64,000 bases of DNA from a virus. The notes beneath the pieces were generated by a model. It had not been told where the DNA came from, ran no database searches, and saw only the letters and a program-made list of their open reading frames with translations. Where the stretch lies: IMG/VR virus record IMGVR_UViG_3300022746_000020, positions 1 to 64,000 of that record, one strand, 5' to 3'. A program made the position numbers and the translations under genes. Shown here piece by piece: positions 28,364-64,000 of this stretch; the stretch's first letter is position 1, and each line of letters begins with the position of its first letter.

Positions 28364-31300
28364 ATGGCAAATACCGTTTTCCAAACCCCAAAGATTAAGG
28401 TTCGTGTAAAGAACGACGGTGCCTTAGCACCAACGCAAGCACTTACACTACGCAATGCTGTTGGCTCTGGCCGTAGGTTGGATGAGCTGACGGACGTCAC
28501 TACTACCAACGTAGCCAATGCGTACATCATTATCTACAATGCGAATTCCGCTACATGGGTGGCACATCGCGCACCTACGATCACCGGCAATGTGTTTCAA
28601 ATTGCGGTATCGAACACATATAACGACTTTGACTGGAGTCTGTCGTTCCCAAATAACGTCATTATTGCCAATAACCTAAACGTTGGCAATAGTTTCAGCA
28701 TTGTCGATCAAACGACGACCGCTAATAATCTAGACATCACAGGCGCGATCAACAGAGATCCGACAATCACGATCAATCTGTCTGGCGACGTCGCAGGTTC
28801 TGGAAATACCACGCTAACGAATTTAGCGAATGGTGTAATCAACATCACAACGACTAATCAGTTCGATAGTATTGAGCTTGGCGTCGATACAACTGGCTCA
28901 TATGTCGGCAACGTGGCTCCAGGAACTGGTGTTCACATTACGGGTGCTGGCGGCGAAAACAGCCAGCCTACATTCTCGATCGGTCAACCAGTTGAAACTG
29001 ATTCTGAAGTTAACTTCGGTAACACAACTGCACATGGCTTTGCAAACGTAACAGGCACGTTGCAAGTATCTGGACGTACTGATCTACGTGATACTGGTAT
29101 TGATGGTACGTTGCGCGTCAACTATACAGCTAATTTGGCTGGCAACGTTGAAATTCGTGGCACCGCTACAGTCAATGGCGCAACCGTTATTGCTAATACT
29201 TTGGCTGTAGGGAATACGACTGTCGTTGGTTCGATTAACGTATCATCCACTGCCAATGTAGGCGGCGATGCTACTATTCATGGTGGTTTGGTTGTCAATG
29301 GCGCAGTAACAATTGCTAACACAGCCAACATCAGTGGCAATGCAGCAATCGCCGGAACACTAACGACTAAGAATGTCGTTCCAGATGCTAACAACGCATA
29401 TGCTCTCGGTACACCTGAAATGCGATACACTGAGTTGTATCTCAGTGGCAATACGCTTGTTGTCGGCAATGCTGTTATTTCGGATGCTGGAACTGTTCTA
29501 AGTGCTCAGACTCCAACTGGCGATCCTATCGCATTCGACGTTGGCAATACGAGCGTACAAGGAACGCTGACAGTTCGCGAGACTGTTTCTTCTAACACAC
29601 TCGTTGCTAATGCAATCTCTGTTGCCGAGAGCTCAGACTTTTATGGTAACACACAAATTCACGGCCCTGCAATCGTTAATGGTGCAGTTACCATCGCAAA
29701 CACAATTGCTACAGGTAATGCAACAGTTACTGGCTATGCGAACGTAACAGGACAACTTCAAACAGGAACATTGCTTTCTGGTAATGCTGATGTTGTAGGT
29801 TATATCAACGTTTCATCAACCGCGAATATCGGCGGCAATGCAACCATCAACGGCCAAGTGTCGGTTACGAATGCGATTGCGACAGGCAATTCGACTGTTA
29901 CTGGTTTCTTAGAAGTATCTTCCACGGCCAACATCGGTGGCGCTGTAACTGCTCGTAGCACAGTCGCTGTTAATGGTGCTGTTACTATTGCAAATACGCT
30001 TGCTACTGGCAATTCGACTGTTACTGGATTCATCAACGTATCATCGACTGCAAACGTCGGCGGCGATCTGACTGCACGTAGCCGAATCATCGCCAACGGC
30101 TCAGTAACAATTGCAAACACTCTTGCTGCTGGTAACACGACTGTTACTGGTTTCTTAGAAGTATCTTCATCAGCAAACGTTGGTGGCAACTTAGCTGCTC
30201 ATGGCAACATGACAGTCAATGGTGCTGTAAATATCGCCAACACTCTAGCGGCTGGTAATACTACAATCACTGGCATCGCGAACGTCCAAGGTAATGTTGT
30301 CGTTACAGATACGCTTGCTGGTAATAACTTAACACTGACTGGTAACCTAACGGTTTCCGGTACAACCACTTATATCAACACAACTGCATTGAATATTGGT
30401 GACAATATCATCACGCTCAATGCTGATATGGCTGGCGTTCCACTTGAGAATGCTGGTATCGACATCAACCGTGGCACATCTGCTAATGTTCAGTTCCTTT
30501 GGGACGAGTTGAACGATAGATGGTCAACGAATGGTAGCAATTTAGCTGTTGGCGCAAACGTCGTTATCAATACTACTGACATTACAGTAGGTAATACGAC
30601 TGTCAATACATTCGCCAACTCTACAACGATCGTTGCAAACAACATCAACGTTGCCACAATCAACCGCAACCCAAACATTGTTGTTTCGTTGACTGGTGAT
30701 GTTGTTGGTACTGCTAACGCAACACTAACAAACTTGGCAAATGGTAGCATTACGCTATCAACAACAATTCAACCGAATGCTGTTGAGCTTGGTATCGATA
30801 CTTCGGGATCATATGTTGGTAATGTCGTACCAGGAACTGGTGTATACATCACTGGAGCTGGTGGTGAGAATAGCCAACCTACGTTTGCAATCGGCCAGCC
30901 AGTCGATACAACATCTGCTGTTACGTTTGGTAACACAACAATCAATGGCACTGCCAATGTCTCTGGTAAGGTAGTTGCTGGTACTATCGATTCAGGAAAT
31001 GTATCGGTAACTGGCTTCATTAATGTCACATCGACTGCCAACATCGGTGGCAATATCACTGCTCGTGGTGATGTAACCGTTAATGGTGCTGTTGTAGTTG
31101 CAAACACAATCGCAACTGGTAATGCAACTGTAGCTGGTTATGCCAACGTTATTGGCAATCTAAATGCAGTGACTGCTACGGTAGGAAACACAATTGTATC
31201 TGGCTCATTGGCTAGTGGCAATACAACTGTAACCGGTTTCATCAACGTTTCTTCTACCGCTAATGTAGGCGGAGCTGTTACCCTGAGAGACAGCTTGACC

Positions 31301-33907
31301 GTTAATGGAGCTGTCTTAATATCTAATACATTGAGCAGCGGCAATACGACTATAGCCGGTTTTGCTAATGTGGTCAACAGTTTGCAAGTGTCGGGTGGAA
31401 CAACTCTAGCAAATACTGTAGATATCGCCGGAAATACGACGATTAGTGCTGGTTCGTTGACGCTTTCCAACACAGTAAGCAAGTGGATCAACTTCCAGCA
31501 AAACGGAATTGGTGCTCCTACAGTCGCCACAAGAAGCGCTGGTACTAAAGCTATTTTCTGGGATACAGTTAGCGCTGCCGCTGTCGACTATGCAATTGGT
31601 ATTGAATCTGGTTCGATGTGGTTCAGTACAGCTACGCTGACCGATAGCAACTACAAGTTCTACGCAAATACTACGCTGATTATGCAAGCCAACAATACTG
31701 GCTTGAATCTATTTGGCCGTACGTTGTCTGGCGTTACTACACTTGCAGCTGGCAACACAACAATCACTGGTTACGCTAACGTAACTGGATCTTTCCAATC
31801 GCAGACGCTGTCAACAGGCAACACGATCGTTGGTGGCACGTTGTCGGCCGGAAATACAACGATTACGGGCTATGCTAATGTAACGACTAGCCTACAGACA
31901 TCTACATTTGTTTCTGGCAATTCCACAATCACTGGTTTTGCTAATGTCGTTGGTACGCTCCAATCGACAACTCTTTCTACTGGCAATAGCGTCGTATCTG
32001 GCACACTGGCTTCTGGAAATACAACAGTTACAGGATTTGCTAATGTAACAGGCAATATGATGTCTGCTACAATCACAGCAGGTAACACAACCGTAACTGG
32101 ATTTGCTAATGTCGTTGGATCGCTACAATCGACAACTCTTACTACAGGCAACACTACTGTAACAGGTTCAGCAAACGTCGTTGGAAACCTACAAACAACA
32201 ACATTCGTTTCTGGTAACTCAACTGTTACAGGTTTTGCTAACGTTGTTGGTAGCTTGCAAACAACTACATTTGCTTCTGGTAATGCAGTTGTGTCTGGAT
32301 CTCTCGATGCTGGCAATACAACCGTAACTGGCTTCGCGAATGTCGTTGGTTCGTTGCAATCGACCACCCTATCGACTGGCAACACAACAGTTGCTGGTAC
32401 ACTCGCATCCGGTAATACAGTAGTAACTGGCTTCATCAACGTATATTCTACAGCAAGCATCGCTGGCAACGTTGATGTTCATGGTACGTTAGTTGTTAAC
32501 GGTGCTACTACAATCGCCAACACGCTTGCTACAGGCAATACGACCGTAAACGGATGGGCAAACGTAACAGGTAATATTAATTCAGCTACGATTACGACTG
32601 GTGGCGCTAATGTAGCCGGCACGCTAGCGGCCGGTAACACAACGATCAATGGATTCGCGAATGTTACATCGACGTTGGATGTTGGTGGTGCAGTAACGAT
32701 TGCTAATACACTTGCAGCTGGCAACACAACGATTACTGGCTTTGCTAATGTGAACGGCGATGCTACTGTTAGTGGCAACGCTACGATCGGGTATCATCTA
32801 ACAGCAAATACAATCCATACACTATCTAACGTCCAGATCGATGGTGATTTGTTTGTCAATGGTAATACTGTAACAATTGGCGTTACGAATCTAGCAGTTG
32901 AAGACAACATGATCTACCTCAACGAAGGTAGTGCAATTGCTAATCCTGATTTGGGTATTACTGGTAACTATAACGACGGTACATATCGTCATGCTGGTTT
33001 CTTCCGTGATGCCACAGATGGAGTGTGGAAAGTCTTCGATCAATATGAGCCTGAACCAGATGGCGCATACATCGATACATCAAACAACACGTTCAGAATC
33101 GCCGACTTCCAAGCAAATACCGGTACGTTCCGTATCGTTGCAGCCGGCAATACTACAATTAGCGGATTCGCTAATGTGGTCGGCACGCTCGATTCTGGAA
33201 ACACAACGATTGTTGGCTTTGCAAACATCTCGTCGACGCTTGCTGCCGGTAATACAACAATTACTGGTTTTGCTAACGTAACTTCGTCGCTCCAATCGTT
33301 GACGTTGTCGACAGGTAACACAACAATTGCTGGAACGCTTGGTGCTGGCAACACAACAGTAGCAGGTTGGGCAAATGTAACATCACAACTACAAACGCAG
33401 ACACTCGTTTCTGGTAACTCTACGATCACCGGATATGCTAATGTCGTTGGTTCGTTGCAATCTACGACACTCTCCACTGGTAATACAACTATCAGTGGTA
33501 CGCTAGCTTCTGGCAACACAACGATTACTGGTAGCTTGGCAGCAACAACAATTGCAGCAGGCAATACTGTATTGTCTGGATCGCTATCTGTAGGAAATAC
33601 TACGATCGCAGGATTTGCGAATGTATCTGGCGCGGTGAGTGCCGGCAATACGACGATCGCTGGTTTTGCAAATGTTATTGGTGATGTTGCAATTTCGGGC
33701 AATATTACTGCAACTGCCATAACACTGACGAACGATCTCACAGTTCCGAACGGCGGTACAGGTAGATCTACATTCACGGTTAATGGCGTTCTTTATGGCA
33801 ATGGTACGGATGGCTTATTGGTAACTGCTGCTGGCGCTGAGGGCGAAGTACTGCAGATTATTGGAGGAGTCCCAACATTCGGATCAATAGACTGTGGTAC
33901 ATTCTGA
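28364..33907 (+). CDS. Long tail fibre shaft protein, beta-repeat, 1847 residues
   Basis: Residues 1-110 form a distinct N-terminal domain (LDELTDVTT, IIYNANSATWVAHRAP). The body consists of repeats around GNTT(I/V)TGFANV with intervening TLQSTTLSTGN-type segments, about 22 residues per unit in the clearest part (about 1120-1400), suggesting a trimeric beta-solenoid. Two domains resemble those in the next fibre: INTTALNIGDNIITLNAD near 670 and VTNLAVEDNMIYLNE near 1505. The C-terminus ends in NGGTGRSTFTVNGVLYGNGT and an IGGVPTFG cap, common in phage fibres and baseplate-linked proteins. It probably forms the proximal or main shaft of a long fibre. Confidence 0.8.
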   Translation: MANTVFQTPKIKVRVKNDGALAPTQALTLRNAVGSGRRLDELTDVTTTNVANAYIIIYNANSATWVAHRAPTITGNVFQIAVSNTYNDFDWSLSFPNNVIIANNLNVGNSFSIVDQTTTANNLDITGAINRDPTITINLSGDVAGSGNTTLTNLANGVINITTTNQFDSIELGVDTTGSYVGNVAPGTGVHITGAGGENSQPTFSIGQPVETDSEVNFGNTTAHGFANVTGTLQVSGRTDLRDTGIDGTLRVNYTANLAGNVEIRGTATVNGATVIANTLAVGNTTVVGSINVSSTANVGGDATIHGGLVVNGAVTIANTANISGNAAIAGTLTTKNVVPDANNAYALGTPEMRYTELYLSGNTLVVGNAVISDAGTVLSAQTPTGDPIAFDVGNTSVQGTLTVRETVSSNTLVANAISVAESSDFYGNTQIHGPAIVNGAVTIANTIATGNATVTGYANVTGQLQTGTLLSGNADVVGYINVSSTANIGGNATINGQVSVTNAIATGNSTVTGFLEVSSTANIGGAVTARSTVAVNGAVTIANTLATGNSTVTGFINVSSTANVGGDLTARSRIIANGSVTIANTLAAGNTTVTGFLEVSSSANVGGNLAAHGNMTVNGAVNIANTLAAGNTTITGIANVQGNVVVTDTLAGNNLTLTGNLTVSGTTTYINTTALNIGDNIITLNADMAGVPLENAGIDINRGTSANVQFLWDELNDRWSTNGSNLAVGANVVINTTDITVGNTTVNTFANSTTIVANNINVATINRNPNIVVSLTGDVVGTANATLTNLANGSITLSTTIQPNAVELGIDTSGSYVGNVVPGTGVYITGAGGENSQPTFAIGQPVDTTSAVTFGNTTINGTANVSGKVVAGTIDSGNVSVTGFINVTSTANIGGNITARGDVTVNGAVVVANTIATGNATVAGYANVIGNLNAVTATVGNTIVSGSLASGNTTVTGFINVSSTANVGGAVTLRDSLTVNGAVLISNTLSSGNTTIAGFANVVNSLQVSGGTTLANTVDIAGNTTISAGSLTLSNTVSKWINFQQNGIGAPTVATRSAGTKAIFWDTVSAAAVDYAIGIESGSMWFSTATLTDSNYKFYANTTLIMQANNTGLNLFGRTLSGVTTLAAGNTTITGYANVTGSFQSQTLSTGNTIVGGTLSAGNTTITGYANVTTSLQTSTFVSGNSTITGFANVVGTLQSTTLSTGNSVVSGTLASGNTTVTGFANVTGNMMSATITAGNTTVTGFANVVGSLQSTTLTTGNTTVTGSANVVGNLQTTTFVSGNSTVTGFANVVGSLQTTTFASGNAVVSGSLDAGNTTVTGFANVVGSLQSTTLSTGNTTVAGTLASGNTVVTGFINVYSTASIAGNVDVHGTLVVNGATTIANTLATGNTTVNGWANVTGNINSATITTGGANVAGTLAAGNTTINGFANVTSTLDVGGAVTIANTLAAGNTTITGFANVNGDATVSGNATIGYHLTANTIHTLSNVQIDGDLFVNGNTVTIGVTNLAVEDNMIYLNEGSAIANPDLGITGNYNDGTYRHAGFFRDATDGVWKVFDQYEPEPDGAYIDTSNNTFRIADFQANTGTFRIVAAGNTTISGFANVVGTLDSGNTTIVGFANISSTLAAGNTTITGFANVTSSLQSLTLSTGNTTIAGTLGAGNTTVAGWANVTSQLQTQTLVSGNSTITGYANVVGSLQSTTLSTGNTTISGTLASGNTTITGSLAATTIAAGNTVLSGSLSVGNTTIAGFANVSGAVSAGNTTIAGFANVIGDVAISGNITATAITLTNDLTVPNGGTGRSTFTVNGVLYGNGTDGLLVTAAGAEGEVLQIIGGVPTFGSIDCGTF
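31732..32430 (+). repeat. Tandem coding repeat, GNTT-V-TGFANV units
   Basis: The densest part of the repeat region in the 1847-residue fibre: about ten consecutive units of roughly 66 bases encode (A/S)GNTT(V/I)TGFANV(V/T)GSLQ(S/T)TT(L/F)STG. Units differ by synonymous and conservative changes. The pattern suggests expansion by unequal exchange followed by divergence. Confidence 0.75.
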
Positions 33908-33981: not shown

Positions 33982-36900
33982 ATGGCTGGAACAAAAGTAC
34001 AAATCAAACGTAGCAGCGTTGCTGGGCGCGTCCCATCAGCTTCAGATATTGAAGTTGGACAGCTTGCTATTAACTTTACAGACAATCGGTTCTTTACAAA
34101 GGACGGGTCAAACACCGTCATTGATGTTTTTGGCCAAAGTCTAAATACAACAGCTAACGTCTCTTTCAGAGATGGTGCATTTGCTAATATTTCAGCTACC
34201 ACGCTTGCTGGTAACTTGGAATGGAGCTACATCACAACAAAACCAGATCTCAAAATCGACATCACAGGCGATGCGACTGGTACAAATACATTTGTTGATC
34301 TTGCAAATGGCGCGATCAACATCACACTTGCTAATACAGCTGTTACGCCAGGCACATATGGTAACAGCTCTGTAATCCCAGTACTCACGATCGATAGTAA
34401 GGGTCGTGTAACGGCTGCAACAACGAATGCGGTAGCTGGCATTACTGGATTCTCATACACATCATCGAACAACACGCTTGCTATTACTGCTGGCGACGGT
34501 TCGGTCTATAAAGCTACCGTCAATACAGTCAATACATTTGCAGTATCGAATACGTTACTTGTGACTGGTGTCGGTACGTTTTCCAACGATGTAATTGTTT
34601 CTGGTAACCTAGTTGTTTCTGGTACAACAACGTACATTAATACGACAGAGCTAAACATTGGCGACAATATCATTTCGCTCAATGCTGATTTAACAGGCAC
34701 TCCATCAGAAAATGCTGGCGTCTCTATCAACAGAGGAACATCCTCTAATGTAGCTTTGTTGTGGGATGAATCGGTAGATGCTTGGACATTTACTAACGAC
34801 GGCTCTACTTACTTCAAGATCGCGAGCAACACGGATGTTGATGCTGCATACGCCAATGCTGCAAGCTATGCTGATGCTAAGGCTGCAAATGCATATTCCA
34901 ACGCAGTAAGCTATACGGATACAAAAGCCGCTGCTGCATATTCTAATGCGACGAGTTATGCAGACACGGTAGCAGCTACATCATATGCTAACGCTACATC
35001 TTATGCTGATACTGTTGCTGCAACATCTTATGCAAATGCAACGAGCTATACGGATACAGTAGCAGCTACAGCGTATTCTAATGCAGCTTCATATGCAGAT
35101 ACAAAGGCTGCAGCGGCTTATTCGAACGCAGTGTCGACAGCATCAGCTGATGCGACAGACAAGGCATCTAATGCTTATAGCAATGCTGTAAGTTTTGCTA
35201 CTGCTGCAGCAAGTGCTGCTTACTCGAATGCAACCTCGTACGCTGATACAAAGGCTGCTGCCGCATACTCGAACGCTGTATCTACAGCAGCAACAGACGC
35301 TACCAATAAAGCAGCCAACGCATACTCCAACGCTATAAGCTATGCTGCTTCGATAGCTGCTACAGCATATTCAAATGCCGTATCTACAGCAGCAACAGAT
35401 GCGACAATACTAGCAACAGATGCGTACAATTCTGCTGTAAGTGCTGCAGCATCTGATGCATCTAGCAAGGCAGCGACTGCTTACTCAAACGCAGTATCGA
35501 CTGCATCGGCCGATGCTACTTCGAAGGCTGCTACGGCTTATTCGAATGCTGTATCTACAGCAGCAACAGACGCTACCAATAAGGCAGCAAATGCATATTC
35601 GAATGCAATTGCATACGCTGCTTCCAATTCATATGTCAATTCGACGTTTGCTCCTCTTGCAGGTGCAACGTTTACTGGATCTGTAACTTTCGCTAACACA
35701 GTAGCGTTTGGCAACACACGGATTACTGCTAATGGTGGTGTAGGCACATCTGGTCAAGTGTTGATGTCTGGTGGTGCAAGCGGCAATGTATATTGGTCGA
35801 CAGTATCGCTGACTGATCTTAATACAACATACACATTATCGACAGCAGCAAACACAGCATCGGCTAACATCGTTTTAACTGGTTCTGATTCATCGACGAA
35901 TACAGTTAAAATCATTGGTGCTGGTGGCCTCAATGTTAGCTCGAATGGTACAGTAATCACACTTGATGGTTCTAGTATCACTGGAGGTGGTGGAAGCAGT
36001 AACAGTTTCGGTACGTTCATCGTAGCTGGCCAAGCAAACGTAGTTGCAGATCAAGCAAATGACACATTGACGCTTGTTGCTGGTAGCAATATGTCGATTA
36101 CGACTAATGCTACGAGTGGCGCAATCACATTTACTTCGACTGCAAGTGGTGGTGGCGGTGCGCTTGGTAACAACGTCGGCAATGCGTTTATATCGGCGCG
36201 TGATAATTTCCTTGGCAACGGATCAAATACAGCATTCACGCTGTCGCAAACGGCAACGTCGAATACAATCCTGGTTCTCGTTGAAGGCTTGGTACAATTC
36301 CATAACGAAGATTATGACGTATCTGGCACAACACTGACATTTACGACTGCTCCAGTAAACAACGAAGCAATTGAAGTCCTTCATATATCTGGTGCGGCGA
36401 TCTATCGCTTCTCGCAATATGGAGCAATTGATAGCTTTACTGGTAACGGAAGCAATACAGGATATACACTATCCAGAACTGCCAATACTAGCACAGCAAC
36501 AGTCTACTTGGATGGTTTGCTGCAGGATCCTTCGACTGACTTCTCGATTAGTGGTACTGCTCTTACATTCACAACTGCACCTCTGAGCGGCGAAAGCATA
36601 TTGGTATATCATGTTGATAGCGCAGCAACTGCTCTACCTTCAGCAGCGATTACGAGCTCGGATACATTTACTGGCGATGGTACAACTACTGCATTTACGT
36701 TGACAGCCACAGCGAATAGTACGACTAGCTTTGTGACAATCAACGGTATGCTCCAACGCTATACGACGGATTATAGCGTAACAGATTTAACGCTGACGTT
36801 TGTCGATGCTCCACCGAGCGGTGCATCGATCCAATCGTTAAGATTGTCAGGAGCAATAGGCGCTTCTTATAAGAGCGTAGTCGCAAATGGCGTAACAGTA

Positions 36901-37203
36901 ACTGCTCCAACATCGGACGCTGTCCTTAATCTAGCAGCTGGTTCGGGTGTATCATTATCTGCGAATGCATCTACATCTACGGTAACTATCGCTGCGACGG
37001 CGGTAACGAAACAATCGCTAACTGGTAATGGATCGAACACGATCTTTACGTTGAGCTCCAGCACATTTTCTGATAATATTCTGGTATTCGTTGATGGTAC
37101 ATACTTCCATCCAGACGAAGACTATACAGTTTCTGGTACTACTATTACATTTTCTTCAGCTCCGATTGCATCGGCTGAAATTAGAATTAGGTTTATTCGA
37201 TAA
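33982..37203 (+). CDS. Tail fibre protein with alanine-rich coiled-coil shaft
   Basis: 1073 residues. The N-terminus (KVQIKRSSVAGRVPSASDIE, then GQLAINFTDNRFFTKDGS, residues 4-40) is a widespread phage fibre head motif. A domain near 215-270 (INTTELNIGDNIISLNAD) parallels the previous fibre. Residues about 287-549 are alanine-rich 15-residue repeats (AYSNAVSYTDTKAAA). After SYVNSTFAPLAGATFTG the C-terminal half has four copies of a beta module starting with F-x-GNGSNT-x-F/Y-T-L (near 745, 815, 893 and 1012), seen also at the start of other fibre proteins downstream. Its stop overlaps the next start by one base. Confidence 0.8.
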   Translation: MAGTKVQIKRSSVAGRVPSASDIEVGQLAINFTDNRFFTKDGSNTVIDVFGQSLNTTANVSFRDGAFANISATTLAGNLEWSYITTKPDLKIDITGDATGTNTFVDLANGAINITLANTAVTPGTYGNSSVIPVLTIDSKGRVTAATTNAVAGITGFSYTSSNNTLAITAGDGSVYKATVNTVNTFAVSNTLLVTGVGTFSNDVIVSGNLVVSGTTTYINTTELNIGDNIISLNADLTGTPSENAGVSINRGTSSNVALLWDESVDAWTFTNDGSTYFKIASNTDVDAAYANAASYADAKAANAYSNAVSYTDTKAAAAYSNATSYADTVAATSYANATSYADTVAATSYANATSYTDTVAATAYSNAASYADTKAAAAYSNAVSTASADATDKASNAYSNAVSFATAAASAAYSNATSYADTKAAAAYSNAVSTAATDATNKAANAYSNAISYAASIAATAYSNAVSTAATDATILATDAYNSAVSAAASDASSKAATAYSNAVSTASADATSKAATAYSNAVSTAATDATNKAANAYSNAIAYAASNSYVNSTFAPLAGATFTGSVTFANTVAFGNTRITANGGVGTSGQVLMSGGASGNVYWSTVSLTDLNTTYTLSTAANTASANIVLTGSDSSTNTVKIIGAGGLNVSSNGTVITLDGSSITGGGGSSNSFGTFIVAGQANVVADQANDTLTLVAGSNMSITTNATSGAITFTSTASGGGGALGNNVGNAFISARDNFLGNGSNTAFTLSQTATSNTILVLVEGLVQFHNEDYDVSGTTLTFTTAPVNNEAIEVLHISGAAIYRFSQYGAIDSFTGNGSNTGYTLSRTANTSTATVYLDGLLQDPSTDFSISGTALTFTTAPLSGESILVYHVDSAATALPSAAITSSDTFTGDGTTTAFTLTATANSTTSFVTINGMLQRYTTDYSVTDLTLTFVDAPPSGASIQSLRLSGAIGASYKSVVANGVTVTAPTSDAVLNLAAGSGVSLSANASTSTVTIAATAVTKQSLTGNGSNTIFTLSSSTFSDNILVFVDGTYFHPDEDYTVSGTTITFSSAPIASAEIRIRFIR
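34842..35630 (+). repeat. 15-residue (45-base) alanine-rich coding repeats
   Basis: Tandem units of A-Y-S-N-A-V-S-Y-A-D-T-K-A-A-A, with some 19-residue units (15+4), encode the shaft of the preceding fibre. A 15-over-4 hydrophobic periodicity is expected for a right-handed or near-straight coiled coil. Short versions of the same repeat are in the fibres at 40286, 46825 and 55687. Confidence 0.75.
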
Positions 37204-43610: not shown

Positions 43611-43955
43611 ATGGGACATTTTGCAAAAGTAGTCGACAACACTGTAGTTCAGGTAATCGTAGCAGAGCCAGAGTTTTTCGATTCGTTCATAGACACTTCT
43701 CCTGGCGAATGGATACAGACATCCTATAATACAAGAGGGGGTATCCACATCCACGGAGGGACGCCTCTTCGCAAGAACTTTGCTGGAGTAGGATATACAT
43801 ACGACAAATTAAAGGATGCATTCATTCCCCCTCAACCATATCCAAGCTGGACGCTCGATGACGACACGTGTATGTGGAACCCGCCAATCGACAAACCTCA
43901 AGATGGGCAAAGATATGCGTGGGATGAGCAAACACAACAATGGAACGAAGTCTAA
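43611..43955 (+). CDS. Small fibre-associated protein (WTLDDDTC type)
   Basis: 114 residues. Conserved pieces VVDNTVVQVIVAEPEFF, LRKNFAGVGYTYD, DAFIPPQPYPSW and a Trp-rich C-terminus (WNPPIDKPQDGQRYAWDE) mark a family common among marine T4-like phages near fibre genes. Molecular function is not established; it may be an accessory or chaperone to the glycine-rich adhesin immediately upstream. SD GAGGT lies 9 bases before the start. Confidence 0.72.
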   Translation: MGHFAKVVDNTVVQVIVAEPEFFDSFIDTSPGEWIQTSYNTRGGIHIHGGTPLRKNFAGVGYTYDKLKDAFIPPQPYPSWTLDDDTCMWNPPIDKPQDGQRYAWDEQTQQWNEV

Positions 43956-60736: not shown

Positions 60737-61948
60737 ATGGCACTAACAAAAGTAACATCTAACGTATTAGGCAATAGCGCAGTCACGTCTGCGAAGATCG
60801 CTCTATCAAATACTGGGTTGACGTTCAACGATGGCAGCAACCAAATGACTGCTGCATCCGGATTCGGTTTCAAGAACCGCATCATTAATGGTGCGATGAT
60901 GATCAATCAGCGAGGTGTGACTACATTGACTGTTAACAACGGCAATTCTTCGACTGTTGGTGGCACATACTTTCAGGACCGGTTCATACTACCTAGCGCC
61001 ACCGCAGTGTCGCAATATTCAACCACACCCTCAGCATTTACTTGTGCTGTAACAAACAACGCTGCGTCGATCGGATATCCGTTCTGTTTTTCGATTACAG
61101 TCAATACGGCAGGTGTGGGCGGAACGAACCGAGACATTTCGTTTATATCTCATAAAGTGGAGGTCGGAAACCTCAGCGATCTTGCGTACGGAACATCCAA
61201 TGCGCAACCAGCTACACTTTCGTTTTGGATTCGCTCGAGTCTCATCGGCCAGAGATCCCTATTCATATACAGTCCCATTACAAATCGATATATTCAGCCG
61301 TCGTTTACGATAAACGCTGCGAATACTTGGGAATATAAGACGATTACGATTCCAGGGGACACGACGGCATCATTTGGCACAACGATGAACGCTGAGGCCA
61401 TTCGGATTGAATTCCGCACATCCTGTTCCGGAACGACTCTGGCAGCAGCAACCAACACATGGGCAACGCTAAGCAGTCAACGTGCTGTAACTGGGGATGT
61501 TGATTTCTTCGGTACAGTCGGAGCAACACTAGATATTACAGGCATTCAATTTGAAAAAGGCCCATCAGCAACATCGTTCGATCATCGCCCATATGGATTA
61601 GAATTGTCCTTGTGTCAAAGATACTATGCTACCATCAATAACCCAGGAAACGTTTCCTATGCTAGATATTCATTAGGACTATGCCGCTCGACTGGAACGT
61701 CGTCGATGGACCTATACGTACATCTGCCAGTTCCAATGAGAACGACGCCAGTATTCAGTACGACAGGCAGCTTCGTTATGGATCCAGGAGCAATCGCTGT
61801 AAGTAGTATCAGTCTATATTCCGCTATTGCAGGATACCAGTACATAGCATTGGCGCCAGTGACTGCATCAAGCATGTCTGTTGGCCCAATATCACTTGTT
61901 CAGAATGCAACTACACAATCATCGTTGAACTTCTCAGCGGAACTATAA
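60737..61948 (+). CDS. Tail fibre tip, KNRIINGAM type
   Basis: 403 residues. Head MALTKVTSNVLGNSAVTSAK, FNDGSNQMTAASGFGFKNRIINGAMMINQRG (about 32-60), then the beta domain with LSDLAYGTSNAQPATLSFWI, INAANTWEYKTITIPGDT, ITGIQFEKGPSATSFDHRPY, LSLCQRYY, ending FSAEL. Paralogous to 50279 and 61952, with a different C-terminal 120 residues, as expected if the tip end is under diversifying selection. Confidence 0.78.
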   Translation: MALTKVTSNVLGNSAVTSAKIALSNTGLTFNDGSNQMTAASGFGFKNRIINGAMMINQRGVTTLTVNNGNSSTVGGTYFQDRFILPSATAVSQYSTTPSAFTCAVTNNAASIGYPFCFSITVNTAGVGGTNRDISFISHKVEVGNLSDLAYGTSNAQPATLSFWIRSSLIGQRSLFIYSPITNRYIQPSFTINAANTWEYKTITIPGDTTASFGTTMNAEAIRIEFRTSCSGTTLAAATNTWATLSSQRAVTGDVDFFGTVGATLDITGIQFEKGPSATSFDHRPYGLELSLCQRYYATINNPGNVSYARYSLGLCRSTGTSSMDLYVHLPVPMRTTPVFSTTGSFVMDPGAIAVSSISLYSAIAGYQYIALAPVTASSMSVGPISLVQNATTQSSLNFSAEL

Positions 61949-61951
61949 AAT

Positions 61952-63067
61952 ATGTCAAGAGCAAGACAAGTATCACAATTAATTGGTGCATCTAATACTC
62001 ATGTAGTAACAACGCCAGCAACGTTTAGCAATACAGTCACTGTTGCTAACTCAGGCATTACGTTCGGCGATGCTACAGTTCAGAACACAGCTGCTAGTGG
62101 ATTTGGCTTTAAGAACCGCATCATCAATGGTGCGATGGTGATCGACCAGAGGAATGGTGGGGCCAGTGTTGCATATGGATCCACTACCACTGCTGGTAAC
62201 TATTATGGTTATAACGTCGACCGTTGGTGGGCACAAAGCTACTCTACAACCGCAGGTAACGGAGCAGCCTTTACGGTACAACAGTCAAGCGTAGCGCCGA
62301 CTGGAATTCCTAGTTCCATCGTTGCTACCGTCACCAGCTCGCAGACAACGCTTCAGAGCGACAGTTTATACCGCATACAACAAGTTATAGAAGGGTATAA
62401 TGTCGCTGATATTGGATTTGGATCTGCTACTGCATCAGCCGTTACCCTATCGTTCTGGGTCAGATCCAATCTTACAGGCACATTCACTGGCGTATTAGGC
62501 AACGACGTTGACTACGCCTACCCATTTACATACACAATCAATGCCGCAAATGTGTGGCAGCAGATCGTGATTACTATTCCAGGAGCGACAGCTGGTACGT
62601 GGCTAAAGAACAACGGCAAGGGAATACTGATTGCGTGGTGTCTTGGTGCACATACATCGCGCCTTGGTACTGCTGGTGCGTGGGTCGCTAGTGCAAACTA
62701 CCAAGGGGCTTCTGGTCAAACGAACTTCATGGCGACAGTTGGTAATACGTTCTACATCACAGGCGTTCAACTAGAAAAAGGCTCAACAGCGACATCATTT
62801 GACTACCGTCCATATACCACTGAACTCCAGCTGTGTCAGCGTTATTACGAAGTTGGTGACAACCAACTATACCTTCCAGTAGTCGCTGGCAACGCTGTTG
62901 CAGCTATAAATTTCAAGGTTACGAAACGAGCATCGGCATCCATTACTACTGTATATGGTAATGGTTCAGCATCGAATGTGGCTGGCTCTACCAACGGAAT
63001 AACTTGGGTTTACTATGGTACATCCCTAGTCCAGGTTAACTCTTGGACCGCTTCGGCTGAACTATAA
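61952..63067 (+). CDS. Tail fibre tip, KNRIINGAM type
   Basis: 371 residues. Head ARQVSQLIGASNTHVVTTPA and a brief shaft, then FGFKNRIINGAMVIDQRNGG near 50, VADIGFGSATASAVTLSFWV, YTINAANVWQQIVITIPGAT, ITGVQLEKGSTATSFDYRPY, LQLCQRYY, ending WTASAEL. It is the last fibre gene of the array. Confidence 0.78.
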   Translation: MSRARQVSQLIGASNTHVVTTPATFSNTVTVANSGITFGDATVQNTAASGFGFKNRIINGAMVIDQRNGGASVAYGSTTTAGNYYGYNVDRWWAQSYSTTAGNGAAFTVQQSSVAPTGIPSSIVATVTSSQTTLQSDSLYRIQQVIEGYNVADIGFGSATASAVTLSFWVRSNLTGTFTGVLGNDVDYAYPFTYTINAANVWQQIVITIPGATAGTWLKNNGKGILIAWCLGAHTSRLGTAGAWVASANYQGASGQTNFMATVGNTFYITGVQLEKGSTATSFDYRPYTTELQLCQRYYEVGDNQLYLPVVAGNAVAAINFKVTKRASASITTVYGNGSASNVAGSTNGITWVYYGTSLVQVNSWTASAEL

Positions 63068-63084
63068 TCCACAATTCCAGCGAG

Positions 63085-63092
63085 CATAAATA
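63085..63092 (+). promoter_or_regulatory. Late promoter motif CATAAATA
   Basis: In the 46-base gap after the fibre array, 21 bases before the ATG at 63114, followed by CAGGAGATATT. The CATAAATACCT core equals that at 46615. It probably served the neck gene before the homing endonuclease inserted. Confidence 0.6.
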
Positions 63093-63113
63093 CCTCCATC
63101 CTCAGGAGATATT

Positions 63114-63137
63114 ATGGCCGTCCCTAATTCTAGACAA
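63114..63137 (+). repeat. 24-base repeat shared with the start of the neck gene (copy 1)
   Basis: Bases 63114-63137 and 63670-63693 match at 22 of 24 positions; both differences are synonymous third-position changes, so both encode MAVPNSRQ. The sequences diverge completely after the Gln codon. Confidence 0.9.
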
Positions 63138-63683
63138 CAAGAAGCATTCGTATATCGGTGGACCGACAGTCTAACCGGTATGCTGTATCTTGGCGTCCAT
63201 AAAGGTACAGTGGACGATGGTTATATCTGCTCTAGTAAGTACATGCTGAAAGAGTATAAGAAGCGCCCCACCGACTTTACGCGCGAGATCGTTTCGCAAG
63301 GCCTTACAGAAGACATGCATGCGCTTGAAGTTCAGATGCTCGTAGAAGTCGACGCCGCACGCAATCCAAAATACTACAACAAGCATAATGGTGGTAACAA
63401 CTTTCTATGTTTAGGCCACACAGAGGACACTCGTCGCAAGATGAGTGAAACGTGGAAATCTCGCACTGAATTTAATTGTAATAATGTTAAGGCGATTGCT
63501 AACTGGCGCGGCAAGCATCACTCCGAAGATGCTAAGAACAAAATGAAAGAAGCTGCTAAGAACCACACAGCTAAGCGCTCGGCCGCAATGACCACGAACA
63601 ACCCAATGAAAGATCCAGCAGCCATTCAGAGAATGTTGGAAACTAGAAGAATAAACAAGGAGCTCCGCAATGGCCGTGCCTAA
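63114..63683 (+). CDS. Homing endonuclease, GIY-YIG-like with NUMOD3 motifs
   Basis: 189 residues. After MAVPNSRQ, residues 12-60 (FVYRWTDSLTGMLYLGVHKG, DDGYICSSK) follow the GIY-YIG layout with both aromatic-hydrophobic strands degenerate (F-V-Y, Y-L-G), a downstream Glu in MHALEVQML (about E77) as metal ligand, and YYNKHNGGNN. NUMOD3-like DNA-binding motifs follow: GHTEDTRRKMSETWKSR (about 102-118) and GKHHSEDAKNKMKEA (about 133-147), then NNPMKDPAAIQRM. The layout is that of Seg-type phage endonucleases. Its SD (GGAGAT) is strong. The first eight codons duplicate those of the next gene, and the two genes overlap by 14 bases. Confidence 0.78.
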   Translation: MAVPNSRQQEAFVYRWTDSLTGMLYLGVHKGTVDDGYICSSKYMLKEYKKRPTDFTREIVSQGLTEDMHALEVQMLVEVDAARNPKYYNKHNGGNNFLCLGHTEDTRRKMSETWKSRTEFNCNNVKAIANWRGKHHSEDAKNKMKEAAKNHTAKRSAAMTTNNPMKDPAAIQRMLETRRINKELRNGRA

Positions 63684-63693
63684 TTCAAGACAA
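63670..63693 (+). repeat. 24-base repeat shared with the homing endonuclease start (copy 2)
   Basis: Second copy of the MAVPNSRQ-encoding repeat, at the start of the neck gene; see the first copy at 63114. Confidence 0.9.
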
Positions 63694-64000
63694 TCCTTTA
63701 AAGATTACTGCCTTCGTAAACTAGGCTTCCCAGTAATTGAAATCAACGTAGATGACGATCAAGTTGAAGATCGTATCGATGAAGCGTTGAGCTATTTCTG
63801 GGATTACCATTTTGATGGTAATGAAAAGATTTACTACAAACACCAAGTAACTGCTCAAGATAGAGCAAACAAATACATTATATTGCCCGACAACATCATC
63901 GGCGCAGTAAGTATCTTTTCGATTGGCGATCCTGCCGTTCGTGCAGACGATCTCTTCAACATTCGCTATCAGATTGCTTTGAACGATCTGTATACATTGA
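63670..64000 (+). CDS. gp13: Neck protein, gp13-like (3' end outside window)
   Basis: The first 110 residues are visible. FKDYCLRKLGFPVIEINVDDDQVEDRIDEALSYFWDYHFDG is the conserved N-terminus of gp13-type neck proteins of marine T4-like phages, followed by YYKHQVTAQDRANKYIILPDNIIGAVSIF. In T4, gp13 and gp14 form the neck joining head and tail. The ATG is preceded by AAGGAG about 8 bases upstream, inside the endonuclease gene's last codons, so translation probably depends on passage through that gene. The gene runs off the window. Confidence 0.78.
   Translation, partial: MAVPNSRQSFKDYCLRKLGFPVIEINVDDDQVEDRIDEALSYFWDYHFDGNEKIYYKHQVTAQDRANKYIILPDNIIGAVSIFSIGDPAVRADDLFNIRYQIALNDLYTL

Follow-up and report, generated by a model that had tools for sequence, protein, structure and literature searches.

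Introduction

The freestanding homing endonuclease gene mobE of phage Aeh1 lies inside the essential gene nrdA, which is split but keeps its function, whereas at the locus reported here the interrupted gene, gp13, is preserved by a second start. In phage T4 the ribosome binding sites of some endonucleases are hidden by RNA structure. According to the available text of PMC2988022, several freestanding T4 endonucleases harness existing phage promoters, embedded promoters of essential genes favor the retention of the endonucleases carrying them, and one-sided homing joins at microhomology. The same text describes SegA to SegG, which resemble the present enzyme in having an I-TevI-type catalytic domain, in being freestanding and, except for segD, in having the same orientation as their neighbors (PMC2988022). 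T4 is described there as using embedded promoters and read-through (PMC2988022), while at the present locus the target's own start appears to have been copied. An endonuclease beginning with the codons of its target is not described in the available portions of PMC2988022, PMC3468402, PMC2993671 and PMC10448857.

A parallel resembling the present locus is T4 mobC at the nrdD/nrdG junction, although it encodes an HNH enzyme and thus belongs to another nuclease family than the GIY-YIG gene studied here. mobC starts exactly where nrdG starts in the mobC-less phage AR1, and 44 of the 45 upstream bases are identical. nrdG restarts inside the end of mobC and the two starts have 21 of 24 bases in common. 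The Mob protein of RB16, which is encoded away from nrdG, also starts with MNYDRIY, so mobC was taken as a parallel in position rather than as further proof that starts are copied. The codons common to mobC and nrdG probably resembled each other beforehand and were not copied. Here we describe a locus at which a freestanding phage homing endonuclease has most likely captured the start of gp13, with a second copy of that start preserving gp13.

Results

The stretch of DNA analyzed, called the window, comprises the first 64,000 bases of the 74,655-base virus record IMGVR_UViG_3300022746_000020, and window positions are used as numbering throughout. An ORF of 189 amino acids (63114-63683) is located near the end of the window, downstream of several tail fiber-like genes; the next gene is a gp13-like neck gene (Table 1). 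Two very long, internally repetitive ORFs of 1847 and 1073 amino acids (28364-33907 and 33982-37203), with degenerate repeats of the GNTTITGFANV and AYSNAVS types, probably encode fiber proteins.

The endonuclease and gp13 ORFs share the N-terminus MAVPNSRQ. The bases encoding it, ATGGCCGTCCCTAATTCTAGACAA (63114-63137) and ATGGCCGTGCCTAATTCAAGACAA (63670-63693), are identical at 22 of 24 positions. Both differences are silent third positions, as the original prediction had stated. With up to three mismatches allowed this 24-base pattern occurred twice in the 64-kb window and in none of 100 dinucleotide shuffles. Among 59,263 pairs of ATG triplets up to 2 kb apart in the record, 22/24 was reached by only three, and the other two were inside repetitive fiber ORFs. 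The repeats flank an insert body of 532 bp, and the endonuclease is the only long ORF within the insert. The two ORFs overlap by 14 nt and the endonuclease stop codon TAA sits in gp13 codons Pro4-Asn5. Sequences matching the late promoter and strong ribosome binding site proposed ahead of the endonuclease were found in place, as was the neck gene start inside the endonuclease 3' end behind AAGGAG. The extent originally given, 63114-63693, holds for the feature as far as the end of the second start copy, while the endonuclease itself ends at 63683.

Table 1. Features of the endonuclease/gp13 locus and of the T4 mobC parallel.
Feature	Position	Strand	Basis
Late-promoter-like CATAAATA, originally that of gp13	63085..63092	+	Same leader immediately ahead of gp13 in empty site L196
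Ribosome binding site AGGAG, inherited from gp13	63104..63108	+	AGGAGATATT-ATG identical before gp13 in L196
Left 24-bp direct repeat: captured gp13 codons 1-8, now endonuclease start	63114..63137	+	22/24 to 63670-63693; blastn homology to L196 stops exactly at 63137
GIY-YIG freestanding homing endonuclease, 189 aa, NUMOD3 motifs	63114..63683	+	PHROG 314 homing endonuclease, E 7e-21; Pfam NUMOD3; I-TevI-like model
Catalytic domain, residues 11-90	63144..63383	+	AlphaFold2 model, pLDDT 93-98
New gp13 ribosome binding site AAGGAG, written in the last endonuclease codons	63657..63662	+	Sequence; same AAGGAG in L103
Right 24-bp direct repeat: second gp13 start copy	63670..63693	+	Repeat comparison, L196 blastn, shuffle test
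gp13-like neck gene (head-tail adaptor), 247 aa	63670..64000 in window, complete at 64413 in record	+	PHROG 211, E 5e-42 (whole protein)
T4 mobC	NC_000866 42906-43538 (loci L218 and L227)		Occupies ancestral nrdG start position

Because the endonuclease interrupts an essential gene within its opening codons, it could be carried by a splicing element, an intein or intron, whose removal would rejoin gp13. This can hardly be the case. The endonuclease gene has its own start and stop outside any intron or intein. The gp13 ATG lies 556 bases after the endonuclease start in another reading frame, with a complete start and ribosome binding site, and a 3,601-base stretch surrounding the endonuclease (L102 4900-8500) gave no Rfam match up to E 1, group I introns included. 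An endonuclease of an intein or group I intron was rejected on the different frames, the internal stop and a gp13 that is complete alone. No inverted repeats of at least 12 bases, sought as transposon-type ends, were found in 63050-63760. A transposon with target-site duplication was likewise rejected, terminal inverted repeats and a transposase being absent and the endonuclease being the sole long ORF of the insert.

The modeled endonuclease is predicted to have an I-TevI-type GIY-YIG fold. The I-TevI catalytic domain was the top Foldseek match of the AlphaFold2 model (prob 1.00, E 0.008). It was also first with VIA-align (Z 8.0, rmsd 2.8, 83 residues aligned), and UvrC and R.Eco29kI ranked below it. 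NUMOD3 (PF07460) scored 23.6 bits against the Pfam cut-off of 20.4 and matched 17 of the 26 aligned family members among the matches listed. The Pfam GIY-YIG models were below cut-off, with SegE_GIY-YIG at 17.5 bits against 25 and PF01541 unlisted for the endonuclease. Residues Y14, Y25, R57 and E72 were invariant across the 26 family members among the matches listed and N89 was present in at least 90%. We take these to be the equivalents of the I-TevI catalytic residues (Tyr, Tyr, Arg, Glu, Asn). No relative turned up when GTDB genomes were scanned for the endonuclease, and a profile search against the sequences of solved structures gave chance-level matches only.

Residues 1-10 of the endonuclease were poorly ordered in the AlphaFold2 model (pLDDT 63). 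Of the 26 aligned family members among the matches listed, 24 start with M(x)EAFVY or close to it. Only two have a gp13-type start, and both of these are directly upstream of gp13. M[AS]xPxx[RK] starts were found in 72 of 80 IMG/VR gp13 relatives among the matches listed, 34 of the 80 having MAVP. In named phages gp13 starts with MAVPTNR (DLP_6), MAQNPNSR (Cr30) and MAKPTTR (phiM19). A second copy of the start, with up to five mismatches, was found in none of the 80 gp13 relatives among the matches listed. The shared start appears to belong to gp13 and to be appended to the enzyme, because gp13 relatives begin with MAxPxxR-type sequences, endonuclease relatives begin with M(x)EAFVY, and residues 1-10 are poorly ordered. 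As the start is native to gp13 and the endonuclease relatives begin otherwise, the direction of copying would be from gp13 to the endonuclease. This bears out the earlier claim that the endonuclease had copied the first eight codons of its target, since the gp13-type start is foreign to the endonuclease family.

A scan for MAVP[ND]SRQ starts gave 27 contig stretches. All had a single match, at a gp13-type start, except L186 and L189, which have the arrangement of the window. L196 was colinear with the record over gp13, gp14, gp15 and beyond (blastn to 74482) and lacked the endonuclease. The gp13 proteins of L196 and the record are identical at 227 of 247 residues. The L196 leader AAATACCTCCATCCTCAGGAGATATT is the same as that of the window and the following ATGGCCGTCCCAAATTCAAGACAATCC runs on into gp13. 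L196 2349-2405 (reverse complement) matched window 63081-63137 over 57 bases (94.7%, no gaps), so that the left homology runs exactly to the end of endonuclease codon 8. The right homology resumes at the gp13 ATG (L196 2382-3125 to 63670-64413, 82.6%). The 24 start bases are thus present once in L196 and twice in the window, on either side of the 532-base body. By this comparison L196 is an almost exact empty site. It fits the uninterrupted relative that had been predicted, with TAAATA, AGGAGATATT and ATG followed by MAVPNSRQ and the gp13 body (94.7% on the left, 82.6% on the right).

The insertion point as read from the alignment is ambiguous within 24 bases because of the 24-bp repeats. Each window copy matched the L196 start at 22 of 24 bases, so the sequence does not tell which copy is new. 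Immediately to the left of the homology block, in the fiber region, the window and L196 are non-homologous. The left homology between the alleles is therefore about 57 bases, of which 24 are the captured codons. The same insert was present in two further metagenome contigs, L089, which showed no difference across the 3,887 bases compared, and L088, which differed only upstream, in the fiber genes (470 mismatches, the last at 60949). The insert is therefore no one-off assembly error. A small gene just before the gp13 promoter of L196 (reverse complement 2004-2322) is matched at 71% by window 43617-43935; one gene of the region has therefore moved between the two phages.

A second case of the arrangement was found in L103 and in the 202-kb contig L192, which is identical to L103 over the stretch compared. 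The L103 endonuclease is 57% identical to that of the window over 188 residues, and the order is TATAAATA, which we take to be a T4-type late promoter, then AGGAG, the MAVP-endonuclease, AAGGAG and the MAVP-gp13. In both the window and L103 the conserved endonuclease end INKELRxGR encodes the AAGGAG ribosome binding site. The L103 endonuclease starts with MAVPTPEAFVY and its gp13 with MAVPADRAS; about four to five codons are common to the two (14 of 24 bases). The L103 endonuclease start matched its own gp13 at 11 of 15 bases, no better than the median gp13 start, and matched gp13 of L069 at 15 of 15. The L103 copy is therefore either older or from another allele. Judged from these starts, L103 supports a gp13-type start, but it gives no support to recent copying from its own gp13.

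The survey of other family members began from at least 87 loci. Thirteen duplicates were dropped, 28 had no next-gene start within 45 bases of the stop, and 46 endonuclease/next-gene pairs were left. Among the matches listed only the window (22/24) and L103 (14/24) stood out of these 46 pairs, the endonuclease starts being set by rule (an ATG no more than 45 bases ahead of the catalytic motif), by which some may be wrong. The remaining 44 pairs among the matches listed averaged 8.75 of 24 bases, with no excess over shuffled pairings. The next-gene start was inside the last endonuclease codons in 35 of the 46 pairs among the matches listed. Other IMG/VR members, for example L104, L108, L114 and L121, belong to the same enzyme family but have the M(x)EAFVY start and no copy of the next gene. 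Many of them seem to lie before gp14 or the portal gene, the names being judged from the first residues. L090-L099 have members of this endonuclease family too, in phages that carry another set of structural genes; L097 encodes in addition an HNH-type endonuclease, starting with MNYSKVYS, two genes upstream. Starts of the form MAxP...F(V/L)Y..W were in frame and open in five of 120 IMG/VR matches listed, and none of the five was an endonuclease as judged from the translations.

Named phages were represented by 10 T4 pairs, five other phage pairs, two pairs from the record and seven more. High start sharing was found only for T4 mobC/nrdG (21/24) and the Cronobacter phage leE endonuclease/nrdG (19/24). 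Both are explained, at least partly, by what appears to be a native MNYxxIY Mob start. Unlike the window, T4 segA, C, E, F and G had only 6-12 of 24 bases in common with the next gene (n = 5 tested). In FL44 and Vibrio phage K485 other endonucleases occupy the nrdD/nrdG junction, and these have no shared start.

The shared start may also be a duplication with no role in mobility. The endonuclease could have inserted into a gp13 start that was already tandemly duplicated, or the repeat could be an accident of break repair, and the copies would simply not have decayed yet. The copies differ by two silent bases only. The 44 other pairs among the matches listed had no shared start, and sharing is therefore unnecessary for persistence of the family. 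Against this, the gp13-type start has been kept in two endonucleases that are just 57% identical, and had the repeat drifted since the split from L103 the chance of at least 22 of 24 matches would be about 0.0007 if it changed as fast as the enzyme body, or 0.025 if it changed as fast as gp13. Such a duplication is thus a tentative alternative and the less likely one. With these chances, the window start copy probably arose, or was renewed, later than the split from L103. The endonuclease bodies of the window and L103 have 60% nucleotide identity with a dN of 0.36 and a saturated dS, and the enzyme has therefore been kept by purifying selection.

The insert is polymorphic for presence and absence, with L196, L010 and L011 empty and the window, L088, L089, L103 and L192 filled. 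A gp13 tree was built from 83 rows, one short row of 84 being dropped; L196 was found later and is outside the tree. The window, L103 and the empty L010 and L011 formed one clade of four rows (99/95), in which L103 and the empty L011 were sisters (100/98). Identity between the window and L196 gp13 was 94% in the first 150 nt and 79.6% in the next 450, the largest excess among comparably divergent pairs (n = 88). Between L103 and L011 it was 63% in the first 60 nt against 87% in nt 91-240, the lowest of 38 pairs of similar identity. Codons 5-27 of L103 gp13 are sharply unlike those of L011, followed by approximately 90% agreement. The early gp13 stretch of L103 and L011 (first 75 bases) is a candidate co-conversion tract, with a candidate cut site in the first 90 bases. 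Break repair with co-conversion would be expected to leave short tracts of this kind beside the insert; the pairs share members, however, and are non-independent.

ATAAATA was found within 60 nt upstream of gp13, at 24-46 nt, in 52 of the 79 gp13 relatives among the matches listed that had at least 50 nt of upstream sequence. From this gp13 would often be first in a late unit of its own. The distance from ATAAATA to the start was 28 nt in the window and 27 nt in L103. Five RNA folds were computed for structure hiding the ribosome binding sites and none stood out clearly from shuffles (z -0.74 to 0.86). The captured start, a copy of the putative target sequence just behind the late promoter, could instead serve as an operator, the enzyme binding a putative half-site by the promoter and repressing itself as I-TevI does. 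There is precedent in T4, where an operator resembling the homing site (15 of 20 bases) overlaps the late promoter of I-TevI, as given in the available text of PMC2988022. In the window, by contrast, the repeat is behind the promoter and not over it, and self-repression of this kind is improbable.

Two further insertions, both absent from L196, were seen downstream. An ORF of 145 amino acids lies between gp13 and gp14 (record 64416-64853; L102 6417-6854). It had no PHROG match and no Pfam match above cut-off; its C-terminus resembles the DNA-binding end of a homing endonuclease by eye and it is perhaps a remnant. A GIY-YIG/NUMOD3-type insertion of 233 amino acids lies between gp14 and gp15 (record about 65609-66310; L102 7610-8311). 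This neck gene cluster thus holds three insertions, with a copied start in the first only.

Discussion

The arrangement at this locus, a captured leader and start with a second gp13 start, is established at the level of sequence. The comparison with L196 supports, in its anatomy, the proposal that the endonuclease holds the expression signals of its target while a duplicated start preserves the neck gene. The 5' end of neck gene 13 in a T4-like phage was most likely the entry site of a freestanding GIY-YIG/NUMOD3 homing endonuclease gene. The old promoter, ribosome binding site, ATG and first eight gp13 codons would now drive and begin the endonuclease. A second start, with its ribosome binding site in the last codons of the endonuclease itself, would keep gp13 intact. 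The most likely targets of the enzyme are gp13 alleles without the insert, cut near the 5' end, and the endonuclease gene may have been copied in by break repair. The captured leader and codons would provide the left homology arm, and gp13 would provide the right one. Each new host allele could then supply promoter and start. An element lacking a promoter and ribosome binding site would gain both at an operon-first site only through those of the target.

It is possible, though doubtful, that recapture of the start at every entry into a new phage is part of the homing cycle. The promoter, ribosome binding site and first gp13 codons of the broken recipient would become the endonuclease start, and the gp13 start of the donor would travel behind the endonuclease. 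The endonuclease would always start with the codons of the local gene, giving a matched left arm despite differing fiber genes. The flanking direct repeats would also permit a clean excision restoring the old gene.

Capture of the gp13 start provides a concrete route by which a selfish gene without expression signals may reach the first position of a late operon while the essential gene is spared. The copied start is a readable sequence signature which can be searched for in phage genomes. An identical N-terminus in two neighboring genes does not by itself make them paralogues, which is a caution for annotation. If recapture were general, the N-termini of such endonucleases would record the last allele invaded.
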